Shown: positions 4,456 to 38,017 of the stretch, in pieces | Layout of the letters: each line of letters begins with the position of its first letter | Position numbering within the stretch: position 1 is the stretch's first letter | Notes under the pieces: generated by a model | Seen by the model: only the letters and a program-made list of their open reading frames with translations | Databases searched by the model: none | What the model was told of the DNA's origin: nothing | Made by a program: the position numbers and the translations under genes | Assembly: GCA_026004975.1 (NCBI GenBank) | Contig: BPKE01000002.1 | Location: 620,001 to 684,000 of the forward strand | Direction: 5' to 3' | Length of the DNA stretch: 64,000 nt | Source of the DNA: Gammaproteobacteria bacterium | GTDB taxonomy: Bacteria; Pseudomonadota; Gammaproteobacteria; HTCC5015

Positions 4456-4638
4456 GGAAGGACACTCCTCGGTTGTCGGGAACGGCCGGCGGAGCCGGCC
4501 CGTTCCGGTCGGGTTGAGCCTCCATGTACCCCATGCGGCGACCCGGGGCGGCCGCGGCGCCGCCCGAGAGGGCACCCCACCGCATGTGCCGGTACATGTG
4601 CGGAATCCACCGCCCCGGCGGGGCGGCGCAAGGCGCGC

Positions 4639-24971: not shown

Positions 24972-26192
24972 TTATGCGTCCGCGTCGCCGGCGACCACGA
25001 TGCGGTTGCGGCCGTCGGCCTTGGCGCGGTACAAGGCCCGGTCGGCGGCGCGCAACACGGCCTGCGGGCCGGGCCGGCGGCCGCGCCCGGCGGCCAGGCC
25101 GATGCTGACGGTCACCGCCAGCGCCTCGCGACCGTTGCGCCCGCCCCGCCGCCGGCGCCCTTCGGCGGCCGAGCGAGGGCGGTCGGGCGCGCGCAGCACC
25201 AAGCGGTGGGCGGCGATCTCGGCGCGCAAGGTCTCCAACCGCGCCGCCACCCACTCGGCGCCGCGCCCGCCGAAGACCAGGCAGAATTCCTCGCCGCCGT
25301 AGCGGTAGGCTTGCCCTCCGCGCAGGCGCGCCAACTTGGCGCCGACCATGCGCAGCACCTGGTCGCCGATGTCGTGGCCGTAACGGTCGTTGACGCGCTT
25401 GAAGTGGTCCACATCGAGCATCGCCAACCAGTAGCGCCCGCCGAGCTGCTCGAGGCGGTCCTCCAGGGCGCGCCGCGCCGGCAGGCCGGTCAGCTCGTCG
25501 CGATAGGCCAGATCGCGGGCGCCCTGCAACAGCGCGACGAGCAGCGCCAGACCGGCGGCACTCTGCATCACCAGCGACTGGCCGGGGCGGGCCAGTTCCG
25601 CCAGTGTCCAGCCGGTGGCGGCGAGCGCCGCCAGTCCGGCGGCGGCGCCCGGCGCGCCCCGGATCAGGCGCCAGACACACAGCAGACCGCCGGCCGCGAA
25701 CAGGGCGAGCGCGGCCGGCGCCAGGGTACGCTCGGGCGGCTGCACCACCCACCAGGGATGGGCGGCGAGCGCCCCGAGGGCCGCCGGAACCGGCATCCCG
25801 GTCCACCACCATCCCGCACCGGCGGCGGCCAACGCCGCCAGGTACGCCCACAACGGCCAGGCGGCGGGGGCGCGCAGGGCGGCGCGCGGCCAGCAGGCCG
25901 CCAGGGTGATCGACACCGGCACGGCGATCCCCAAAACGGCGAGCACCGCGCGCGGCAGCGGCAAGGACAGGCGCGTCTGCAGGGTCAGGTCCACCACCGC
26001 GTAGAAGCCCGCCAGCAGCAAGGCCAGAACGCAAATGTGCAGGCGGTTGTAATAGGCGGCCAGCGCCGCCGCCAGCGCGGCCAAGGCATAAGGCAACCAG
26101 GGCCACGCCCCGAGTTCGCGCCACAACGCCTCCTGCCAGTACCCCGCGGCGGCCAGCAGCCCCAGGGGCGCGACCAGTTGTCGCCAGTGCAC
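24972..26192 (-). CDS. Membrane diguanylate cyclase (GGDEF, GGEEF variant)
   Basis: Several TM segments; [16 protein letters not shown]...[23 protein letters not shown]...[12 protein letters not shown]; start uncertain (GTG at 26192 or further upstream). Confidence 0.85.
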
Positions 26193-26316
26193 GGTTCCCC
26201 CCTCATGCGCGAACGAAACGGAAAGCGCTCGCCCGAGCGCGGGCGGGCGCGCGCCGATCCTACCATCACGGATGTGAAAATACCGCCGGGGCGAACCCGC
26301 AGACGTGACGAAACGG

Positions 26317-26345
26317 TTGCAAGGAAAACGTGGAATCACTATATT
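26317..26345 (+). promoter_or_regulatory. Candidate sigma70-like promoter reading into structured element
   Basis: TTGCAA-N17-TATATT. Confidence 0.45.
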
Positions 26346-26350
26346 CTGGC

Positions 26351-26485
26351 GACCCGGGAATGTCGCTCCCTGTGTTCCCGGTACGGGTGGGGGAAGGGAT
26401 ATTCGCCCTCCTGCGACCCTGCTGTCGCACTCGATATCCCAAAAGTCTTAGCCCGGACTTCTCCCCCACCCACCTTTGCTTTCTT
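26351..26485 (+). ncRNA. Candidate structured ncRNA or palindromic MITE-like element
   Basis: Hairpin CCGGGAA(26354-60)/TTCCCGG(26375-81) followed by three-way junction: GGGTGGGGG(26385-93)/CCCCCACCC(26463-71), GGGATAT(26396-402)/ATATCCC(26434-40), TGCGAC(26412-17)/GTCGCA(26424-29), AAGTC(26443-47)/GACTT(26456-60); 3' end not determined. Confidence 0.4.
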
Positions 26486-27158
26486 CGGCCGCCACGCCCA
26501 CCGGTTCCACCGGCAGGCGCCGCGGATCCGCCGAAGGCAACACCACCAACACCACCCGGCGATTGCGCGCCCGCGCCCGCGCGTCGCGGTTGGGCACCGC
26601 CGGCCGTTGATCGCCGTGGGCCACGGCCGCCAGTCGCGCCGGCGCCACGCCCCGTTCGACCAGCAGGCGCAACACGGCGGTGGCGCGGGCGGCCGACAAT
26701 TCCCAGTTGGATGGATAGCGCGGGCCGGCGATCGGGCGGTCGTCGGTGAAACCTTCGACCAGCACGGCGTTGTCGAAAGGCACGAGCGTGTCGGCCAGGG
26801 CCTCGATCAGGGGGCGGGCGCGCGGCTCGAGCTCGGCGCTGCCGCTGGCGTAGAGCATGCCGGCTTCGAGCTCGATCTCCAGGCGCAGCGGCCGGCGCGT
26901 CACCCGGATCCGTCCCTGCTCGAGCCAAGGCGACAGCGCCGCCTGCAGGCGCGCGTCGATCTCGCCGATGCGCCAGGCCTGCTCGACGGCGGGGGTCGGG
27001 GCGGCGTCGGTGTCGCCGCCCGCGGGGTCACGGGCCGGGGTGGACCAAGCGCCGGCATAGAGCAGGACGAACAGGGCGAAGAGCAAGGTCATCCAGTCGG
27101 CGTAGCACACCAACCAACGGTCGTGGCTGCGCCGCCGCTCTGTGCCGACCCCGTTCAT
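26448..27158 (-). CDS. motD: MotB-like OmpA-domain flagellar stator protein (MotD-type)
   Basis: RWLVCYADWMTLLFALFVLLYA; VEGFTDDRPI...YPSNWELSAARATAV. Confidence 0.88.
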   Translation of the reverse strand: MNGVGTERRRSHDRWLVCYADWMTLLFALFVLLYAGAWSTPARDPAGGDTDAAPTPAVEQAWRIGEIDARLQAALSPWLEQGRIRVTRRPLRLEIELEAGMLYASGSAELEPRARPLIEALADTLVPFDNAVLVEGFTDDRPIAGPRYPSNWELSAARATAVLRLLVERGVAPARLAAVAHGDQRPAVPNRDARARARNRRVVLVVLPSADPRRLPVEPVGVAAEESKGGWGRSPG

Positions 27159-27161
27159 GGG

Positions 27162-27935
27162 TCAAGCGGCGGCCTGGGCCCGGCAGTAGCCGGTCAGGCG
27201 CTCGCGGATGCGATGCGGGTTGTCCCCTTCGGCGATCGCGACCACCCCCTCCAGAACCAGGCGCCGCGCCTGCAAGGTGTCCTGGACGATCCCCCGCAGA
27301 CGTTCGGCGACCGGCAGACAGAACAGGTTCGCCAGCGCCAGGCCGTAGACGGTCGCGACGAAGGCCGCGGCGATGGCCGGCCCGAGCCGGGCCGGGTCGG
27401 CCAGCGCCGAGGTGGCGCGGATCAGGCCGAGCACGGCGCCGAGCATGCCGAAGATGGGCGCGTAGCCGCCGAGGCTTTCGTAGACGCCGACGGCGCGCTG
27501 CAGGCGCCGCGCCTCGGCTTCGAGCTCGACTTCCATGCTGCGCCGGATGGCCTCGGCGCTGCGCCCGTCCACGAGCAGTTGCAGCGCCTTGGCGACGAAG
27601 GGGTCGCGCTGGCGCGCGGTTTCGGCATCCAGAGCCAGGATGCCCTCCCGCCGCGCCACCCAGCTCCAGCGCAGCACGATGTCCAGTTGCGCCCGCGGCG
27701 TCAAGGCCGGTGTCGCGAAAACCCAACGGAGCAAAGCCGCCGCCAGGCGCAGGCCAGACACGGGGGTTTCGACCAGCACCGCGGCCAGAGCGCCGCCGAC
27801 CACCACGGCCAGCGCCGCCGGTTGCCAGAGCCGCTCCAGCGCCAGGCCGTCGGCGGCGCCCGCCCCGCAGATCAACGCCAGGCCGCCCGCGAGCCCCAGC
27901 CAGGCGCCCCATTGCAACCGCGCCGCCCGCGCCAT
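27162..27935 (-). CDS. motC: MotA-like flagellar stator protein (MotC-type)
   Basis: MotA/ExbB fold; YAPIFGMLGAVLGLIRA; between fleN and motD. Confidence 0.88.
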   Translation of the reverse strand: MARAARLQWGAWLGLAGGLALICGAGAADGLALERLWQPAALAVVVGGALAAVLVETPVSGLRLAAALLRWVFATPALTPRAQLDIVLRWSWVARREGILALDAETARQRDPFVAKALQLLVDGRSAEAIRRSMEVELEAEARRLQRAVGVYESLGGYAPIFGMLGAVLGLIRATSALADPARLGPAIAAAFVATVYGLALANLFCLPVAERLRGIVQDTLQARRLVLEGVVAIAEGDNPHRIRERLTGYCRAQAAA

Positions 27936-27950
27936 CCGCTCGGCTCCGCA

Positions 27951-28808
27951 TCACCCGGCCAGCGCCAGCGCGTCGGCGCCGACCAGGCGTTCCAGGAAAA
28001 ACTGCACGTGCCCGCTGGCCTGCTCCAGCAGCGGCCAGCCGTCGACGGTCGCCGCGAGGCGCCGGAACGCCTCGCTGGCGCGCGCCCGCGGATAGGCTTC
28101 CACCACGGCGCTGCGCGCCTGCACCGCCTTGCGCAACTGCTCGTCGAACGGCACCATGCCGGCATAATCCAGCGTCACGTCGAGAAAGCGGGTCACCACC
28201 GACAACAGGCGCGCGAACACGGCACGGGCCTGCGCCTCCGAAGCGGCCATGTTCACCACCACCCGGCAGCGTCCGACGCCGTAATCGCGTCCCAGAACCT
28301 TGATCAGGGCGTAGGCGTCGGCCAGCGCGGTGGGCTCGTCGCAGACCACGACCATCACGTGTTGCGCCGCCCGGCAGAACGACAGGACATGCGGCCCGAT
28401 GCCCGCCGCGGTGTCCACGAGCAACGTGTCGAGCGGGAAGCGCACCTGGCTGAAACCGTAGATCAACCCGGCCAGTTCGCGCTCGTTCATGCGCGTCAAG
28501 CGGTGCACGCCCGAGGCCGCCGGCACGATCCGCACCCCGGCCGGCCCTTCGATGAGGATGTCGTCGAGCGTGCACGCCCCGTCGATCACGTGGCGGATGT
28601 CGCGCGGCGGCTTCAAGCCGAGCAGCACATCCACGTTGGCCAGGCCGAGGTCGGCGTCGAGCAGCATCACCTTGCGCCCGCGGCGCGCCATCGCCACCGC
28701 CAAGTTCACGGCGACGTTGGTCTTGCCGACGCCGCCCTTTCCGCCGCTGACCGCGATCACCTGCACGGGCCGGGGCCCGGACCGATCCAATGCCGTTACC
28801 GTTTGCAT
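27951..28808 (-). CDS. fleN: MinD-like flagellar number regulator
   Basis: VIAVSGGKGGVGKTNVAVNLAVAMARRGRKVMLLDADLGLANVDVLLG; downstream of flhF. Confidence 0.92.
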   Translation of the reverse strand: MQTVTALDRSGPRPVQVIAVSGGKGGVGKTNVAVNLAVAMARRGRKVMLLDADLGLANVDVLLGLKPPRDIRHVIDGACTLDDILIEGPAGVRIVPAASGVHRLTRMNERELAGLIYGFSQVRFPLDTLLVDTAAGIGPHVLSFCRAAQHVMVVVCDEPTALADAYALIKVLGRDYGVGRCRVVVNMAASEAQARAVFARLLSVVTRFLDVTLDYAGMVPFDEQLRKAVQARSAVVEAYPRARASEAFRRLAATVDGWPLLEQASGHVQFFLERLVGADALALAG

Positions 28809-28827: not shown

Positions 28828-30075
28828 TCAAACCGCCGCTTTCAATCCGAAACGCCCGTGACGCAGGGCGAGCAAGGTCTCGTCGTCGCCGGATGCGTGG
28901 CGCCGCGCCAGCGCCACCGCCTTGCCGAGCAACAGCGAAACGCGGGCCGGCTGCAGGTCCTCCGGCACGCGCGGGCCGTGGCTCACGAAAGCCAAAGGCA
29001 GCTTGTAGCGCACCGCCACGGTGAGCACACCGCCCAGGCTGCCGGCCTCGTCGAGCTTGGTGAGCACGCAACCGGCGAGCGACGTCTCGGAATACGCCCG
29101 CGCCGTCTCATCCAGGCTGCGCAACTGGGTGGCGGCGCTGAGCACGAGAACCCGCCGGATCGGCAAGCGCGCATCGAGCAGCACGCCCTTGGGCCGGCGC
29201 CGCCAGTCGGCCGCCTGCATCCCCGCGGTGTCGATCAGGATCAAGCGCTTGTTGCGCACCGCGGCCAACACGTCGCGCAGATCCCGTTCGTCGGCCGCGC
29301 ACACGACGCCGATGCCGAGCGCGCGCCCGAGGCTGAGCAACTGTTCGTGCGCGCCGATGCGCCGGTCGTCGTTGGCGATCATCAGCACGCTCTGGCGGCC
29401 GTGGCGGGCGGCGAAACGCGCCGCCAGCTTCGCCGCCGTGGTCGTCTTGCCGACACCGGTCGGCCCCAGCAAGGTGACGATGCCGCCGCGGTCGAAAGCG
29501 GCCGCATCGACCACGCGCAGCCGCGCCGCCCACACCGCCAGGGCGCGCCGCCAGGCGCGTTCCATGTCCGGCTCGGCGCCGACCTGGGCGACGATCTGGC
29601 GGCACAGGCCGCTGCCCAGCCCGACCGCCGTCAGACGCCGCAGCAACTGCACCTTGAGCGGTGAAAGGTGGCACATCTGCTGCCAGCCGAGCAGGTCCAT
29701 CTGGTCCTGCATCAGGCGGCTCATCGCGCCCAGTTCGCGGCGCACCTGTTCGATCATGCGCTGCTCCATGCGCACGATTTCGGCGCCGCCGGCGCCTGCG
29801 CCCGCGGCCGCTGCCGGGCGCGCCGTCGGCGCCGGCTCGGACCGCTGGGCGCGCTCGGCCAGCCACTGCGCGGTGGTCAATTCCGTCTGCGCGGCGCCGG
29901 CCCGCCCCGCCGTCCAGGACTCCACCTGCCCGGCGTCGTAGCCGACCCCGACGATCAATTCCACGCCGTCGGCCGTCCGGCGGTTGCTGAGGATGACCGC
30001 CTCCTCACCGAAGCGCTCCCGCACGGCGCGCATGGCACCGCGCACATCCGCTGCACGTACCCGCTTGATCTTCAT
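28828..30075 (-). CDS. flhF: Flagellar biosynthesis SRP-like GTPase
   Basis: MKIKRVRAADVRGAMRAVRERFGEEAVILSNRR; LLGPTGVGKTTTAAKLAARF. Confidence 0.94.
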   Translation of the reverse strand: MKIKRVRAADVRGAMRAVRERFGEEAVILSNRRTADGVELIVGVGYDAGQVESWTAGRAGAAQTELTTAQWLAERAQRSEPAPTARPAAAAGAGAGGAEIVRMEQRMIEQVRRELGAMSRLMQDQMDLLGWQQMCHLSPLKVQLLRRLTAVGLGSGLCRQIVAQVGAEPDMERAWRRALAVWAARLRVVDAAAFDRGGIVTLLGPTGVGKTTTAAKLAARFAARHGRQSVLMIANDDRRIGAHEQLLSLGRALGIGVVCAADERDLRDVLAAVRNKRLILIDTAGMQAADWRRRPKGVLLDARLPIRRVLVLSAATQLRSLDETARAYSETSLAGCVLTKLDEAGSLGGVLTVAVRYKLPLAFVSHGPRVPEDLQPARVSLLLGKAVALARRHASGDDETLLALRHGRFGLKAAV

Positions 30076-30456
30076 GCCGATCTCCCCGGCGCCGTCGCGC
30101 CTTGACGCCACCGCCCGTCATTCCCGGCCGGCCGGAAAAGGCCGTCCCTGGCCTTCCCCGCCGCAACGCCGCGGGCCGGGACGGCCGACTGCGACCCTGT
30201 CCCCGCCGTCGCCGGTCCGCGACGCCCTCGCGCGCGGGCGACCCTTTCCCCGACCGCCCGTCTTCCCTGCCCCGCGCGATGACGGCCTCCTGCCGTCGTC
30301 GCGCGATCTCGACGGCACCGGCGGCTTCCCGCCGCCTCGACGACGCCATCCCGGCGCCGCCCCACGCCTGCCTGCCCGAACGCGGCGGGCCGCACTCCCG
30401 CCGGCGCCACCGCGTTCACTCGTGCCGTCCGATCCCAGACCATGCCCCAACCCTCC

Positions 30457-37988: not shown

Positions 37989-38017
37989 TTGAAATTCACG
38001 CTGCACGCCGATATAAT
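37989..38017 (+). promoter_or_regulatory. sigma70-like promoter of ectABC
   Basis: TTGAAA-N17-TATAAT; about 150 nt upstream of ectA. Confidence 0.75.

Follow-up and report, generated by a model that had tools for sequence, protein, structure and literature searches.

Does the compact set of inverted repeats that separates the flagellar gene motD from a GGDEF gene, preceded by a promoter-like site, encode a small RNA of its own, or is it ordinary control DNA of its two neighbors? We examined this using the whole 64,000-nt stretch of DNA (the window), with positions counted from its first letter, and the assembly it comes from (1.67 Mb, 64% complete).

Inverted-repeat search and folding identified five stems on the + strand. 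The hairpin H1 (26354–26381) is formed by CCGGGAA/TTCCCGG at 26354-60/26375-81 and holds an inner CGC/GTG pairing that is found on the + strand only. P1 (GGGTGGGGGA/TCCCCCACCC, 26385-94/26462-71) is a perfect 10-bp stem that closes a predicted three-way-junction domain (26385–26471), whose arms are P2/P2b (26396–26440) and P3 (26443–26460). P2 pairs GGGATAT with ATATCCC (26396-402/26434-40), P2b lies inside it (TGCGAC/GTCGCA, 26412-17/26424-29), and P3 has 6 bp with a terminal U-G pair (AAGTCT/GGACTT, 26443-48/26455-60). The initial annotation, made from the letters alone, had listed five stems, and all are located where it placed them, P1 being one base pair longer than reported. It had also proposed folding the region, which gives a compact fold with z of about −4 on the + strand that is robust to flanking sequence: mean pair probabilities are 0.93–0.99 for the element alone and 0.85–0.99 with ~100 nt of flank on each side. 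The minimum free energy of 26345–26500 on the + strand is −65.4 kcal/mol as compared to −49.7 in shuffles (z −4.02; 0 of 200 dinucleotide shuffles fold as well), whereas the opposite strand reaches z −2.91, i.e., its fold is weaker relative to shuffles. This strand bias comes partly from G-U pairs (at the end of P3 and in the inner part of H1), which become A-C mismatches on the − strand.

Strong folds are frequent in this window, which has a GC content of 70%. Scanning the + strand against dinucleotide shuffles places the element third among 534 stretches of 120 nt (a rank that is flattered, as its register was picked for good folding) and third of the 22 distinct, non-overlapping loci that have z < −3. 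By GC-adjusted energy it ranks 127 out of 6388, within the top 2% of the window. The element is more structured than chance for its composition, yet it is not unique within the window, and the fold alone proves little because so many loci reach z < −3 at this GC content.

A promoter scan found a sigma-70-like site, TTGCAA-N17-TATATT, at 26317–26345 on the + strand (score 9/12), exactly as claimed initially. Its spacing puts the predicted transcription start (an A, 7 nt past the −10) at 26352; the site ends 8 nt upstream of the first stem and H1 begins 2 nt beyond the predicted start, in agreement with the remark that the structure starts near the expected start point. What the initial annotation overlooked is an opposing site of equal score in the same AT-rich island, GCGACA-N17-TATAGT at 26366–26338 on the − strand (9/12), which points to the GGDEF gene. 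The −35 of the + site keeps the TTG core, which is absent from the weaker −35 of the − site. Such sites are scarce (three on the + strand and four on the − strand of the 64-kb window), and two of the seven are at the motD-GGDEF locus. The top site of the window is TTGAAA-N17-TATAAT (37989–38017, + strand, 11/12).

The element is flanked by motD and a GGDEF gene, as initially described, and both genes are on the − strand. According to the ORF list and domain matches, motD (MotB_plug and OmpA domains) spans 26448–27158, and the GGDEF gene (24972–26193) belongs to an ORF that opens at 26339, its likely start being a GTG at ~26193 behind the ribosome site AGGGGGG. The two genes are codirectional and, going by that likely start, ~255 nt apart; flhA-flhF-flhG-motC-motD run on the − strand up to the element, at the end of the flagellar operon. 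The stems were initially said not to be explained by coding, which is only partly right, because the right arm of P1 consists of the last motD codons. The motD ORF ends at 26448; its reading frame thus takes in P1's right arm as well as part of P3, and its stop codon TAA falls in the P3 hairpin. Out of 18 homologous loci examined, 17 showed no GGDEF motif within 4 kb downstream of motD.

Some further features of this neighborhood may be recorded here. A small hairpin, GCGCTCGGGCGAGCGC followed by TTTCCGTTTC (26225–26240, − strand, ~32 nt upstream of the likely GGDEF start), is a possible leader attenuator of the GGDEF gene, though its occurrence is at chance expectation. An 8-nt inverted repeat (GTCGCCAG/CTGGCGAC, 26180–26187 and 26346–26353) pairs the GGDEF start region with the edge of the element, and such pairing could hide the GGDEF start in a read-through message. 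We note that fliA is not found between flhG and motC (27935–27951); a same-family genome (G001) has a sigma-factor-like ORF there.

Behind P1, on the + side only, is a U-rich stretch, ACCTTTGCTTTCTT (26472–26485, read from the sequence). It is weak and interrupted, and a terminator scan that covers short loops only made no call there; it is a possible weak intrinsic termination signal on the + strand. On the − strand the stem is not followed by a U run, and the element is therefore not a canonical terminator in that direction. At least one canonical terminator is used elsewhere in the genome (53365–53392 plus TTTTTT).

Searches for known families and relatives returned little. The initial reader did not recognize the element as SRP, 6S, tmRNA, RNase P or a GEMM riboswitch, and an Rfam 15 scan agrees: with the cutoff relaxed to E ≤ 10, no family is placed on the structured element (chance-level matches are outside the element only), using a library that recovers within the same window the t44 RNA (RF00127, 61.2 bits; 4513–4606, − strand), a known leader element at rpsB. 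The 6S RNA model RF00013 has no match in the element. It has none in the 64% complete assembly either, where 6S RNA is probably in the missing sequence or possibly divergent. The element, a hairpin plus a three-way junction and not a long rod with a central bubble, was rejected as 6S RNA. Also rejected were an integron attC site (no RYYYAAC/GTTRRRY boxes seen in the element) and a retron or TnpB guide RNA (the neighbors are motD and the GGDEF gene, not a reverse transcriptase or tnpB). DNA search and covariance model found a single copy of the element in the assembly, and no convincing relative in the three same-family genomes or among 369 genomes of the class. DNA searches of plasmids, phages and E. 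coli genomes, and a search of viral contigs, gave no convincing match, and a single-sequence covariance model found nothing near motD homologues of other bacteria (best E 0.34). A 34-bp blastn match in one genome, G055 (E 3.6e-4 for that genome, ~0.13 over 369), was discarded as chance because inspection showed no partners for P2 and P2b there. Plasmid and phage matches of ~25–35 bp (E 0.5–6) were rejected as well; on inspection, the Jiella and Sinorhizobium sequences lack the full fold. G001 does have a motD (47% identity), but the sequence downstream of it is unrelated, and the covariance model finds nothing at the orthologous position. Absence of homologues does not discriminate between a young RNA gene and neutral sequence. 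The case also illustrates that a strong single-sequence fold without relatives says little in a 70% GC genome.

How, then, can the element be explained? The main rival to a small RNA is that the element is ordinary control DNA belonging to its two neighbors on the − strand, a reading that the opposing promoter-like site makes available and that we regard as only slightly less probable than a small RNA. The AT-rich island would be the GGDEF promoter, with a start near 26331 and a leader of ~138 nt; H1 would be an operator-like palindrome at the GGDEF −35 with half-sites 21 bp apart; and the branched hairpin at the motD stop would be a 3'-end structure of the operon mRNA, slowing decay or separating messages. 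Known genes would account for the same AT-rich island, and the opposing site, the codirectional genes with their ~255-nt spacing, the hairpin that straddles the motD stop codon and the flagellar genes that lead up to it all fit; the missing U run on the − strand, the weaker − strand fold, a −35 without the TTG core and the lack of a conserved motD-GGDEF pairing do not.

Chance structure, i.e., a fast-evolving, GC-rich stretch between genes that happens to contain several inverted repeats but has no RNA role, would agree with the GC-adjusted rank, with the 22 loci of z < −3 and with the failure to find conservation. We find it unlikely given that the element is third by shuffle z-score and that its five stems make one compact fold of high pair probabilities beside rare promoter-like sites. 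Less probable still is that a palindromic mobile element (MITE or REP-like) left the structure behind, an origin which the initial annotation had put on a par with an RNA gene. P1 could be taken as a long perfect terminal inverted repeat, and the motD frame runs into P1, as an insertion could produce. This alternative is not supported, with a single copy in the 64% complete assembly by both searches, no convincing match in the plasmids, phages, E. coli genomes, viral contigs or 369 class genomes, and no target duplication seen (P1 is flanked by GTAC and ACCT, and local direct repeats were inspected).

Our slight preference, held at somewhat less than even confidence, is for a lineage-restricted small RNA of ~120–135 nt, expressed from the + strand by its own sigma-70 promoter. 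The analysis shows the sequence motifs, a predicted fold and the strand bias of that fold; that the element is transcribed, where such an RNA would begin and end, and any function are inferred. Four indications, each mild, point to it: H1 begins 2 nt beyond the predicted start; the + promoter, with a −35 that keeps the TTG core where the − site does not, is the better of the two; folding favors the + strand (z −4.0 versus −2.9); and a U-rich stretch follows P1 on the + side only. Also in its favor are the rarity of promoter-like sites in this GC-rich window, this one ending 8 nt before the first stem, and a + strand fold that is third by shuffle z-score and holds in context. The small RNA reading is weakened by the lack of a homologue in any searched set, by a U-rich stretch that is weak and interrupted in a genome that has a canonical terminator, by an equally scored − strand promoter that would serve a real gene, by a + promoter of only 9/12 and by the 22 window loci with z < −3. 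The initial proposal of a noncoding RNA stays live as a candidate, given a first stem 2 nt past the predicted start, a fold that is stronger on the + strand and no Rfam match even at E ≤ 10. It missed the coding overlap and the opposing promoter-like site. A small RNA and a GGDEF promoter with an operon-end hairpin are not mutually exclusive.

If the small RNA exists, RNA polymerase carrying the housekeeping sigma factor would start a + strand transcript near 26352. Immediate folding of this transcript (~120–135 nt) would give a 5' hairpin and a closed three-way junction, which shield its ends, and it would end within or just past the U-rich stretch at 26472–26485, inside the motD 3' end on the opposite strand, with an antisense overlap of ~24–38 nt with the motD mRNA. 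The 3' end of this mRNA is the only partner of the putative RNA evident from the sequence, and any regulation there is presumed; most simply, the RNA would act there on how the flagellar mRNA forms its 3' end or decays, and trans targets are possible. If transcribed, the element would yield an antisense small RNA where flagellar genes meet c-di-GMP genes, at the motile-to-sessile switch of a poorly sampled group; if not transcribed, it amounts to an ordinary promoter next to an operon end. We consider it quite improbable that the element founds an undescribed class of small RNA, with a 5' hairpin followed by a closed three-way junction, in a sparsely sampled lineage, and that such an RNA, overlapping the motD end, couples turnover of the flagellar mRNA to the diguanylate cyclase gene next to it.

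Another structured region in the same operon came to our attention post hoc. The flhA-flhF gap (30072–30456) is ~385 nt here and ~43 nt in G001, and its fold is strong in either orientation (z −4.84 for the + strand and −3.11 for the − strand). When the coding (−) strand is folded, GGA is scored in 7 of the 10 hairpin loops as compared to 1.7 in shuffles (0 of 200 shuffles reach 7), the GGA-bearing loops being GGGAA, AGGAG, AGGGAC, GGGAT and GGGGAAAG. In a simpler count of stems of at least 6 bp, GGA loops are found in 4 of 5 hairpins of the gap and in 28 of 625 window-wide, making the gap the top GGA-loop hairpin cluster of the window. CsrA is encoded in the genome, and Rfam gave no credible match in the gap. 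The gap is a candidate CsrA-binding array or sponge inside the flagellar operon, and this predicted array appears more promising to us than the element behind motD. In the literature we did not find a direct precedent for the motD-GGDEF locus or for such CsrA arrays.

Three kinds of known systems can be compared with the element behind motD. It shares stem-loops and a csrA-bearing genome with the CsrA-sequestering RNAs (CsrB, RsmX-Y-Z), but GGA is found in none of its hairpin loops on the + strand and in one on the − strand, as in shuffles, and it was rejected as a CsrA sponge of the CsrB/RsmZ type. Like intercistronic and 3'-end mRNA hairpins (REP-like stabilizers, terminators), it has a stable operon-end stem that straddles the motD stop; unlike them, it is branched, present in a single copy and without a U run on the strand of the operon. 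As compared to sigma-70-driven intergenic small RNA genes, it has no Rfam family or homologues, a weak putative terminator and a partial coding overlap, but it resembles them in its promoter-like site with structure beside the predicted start, in the U-rich stretch after its last stem, and in its intergenic position.
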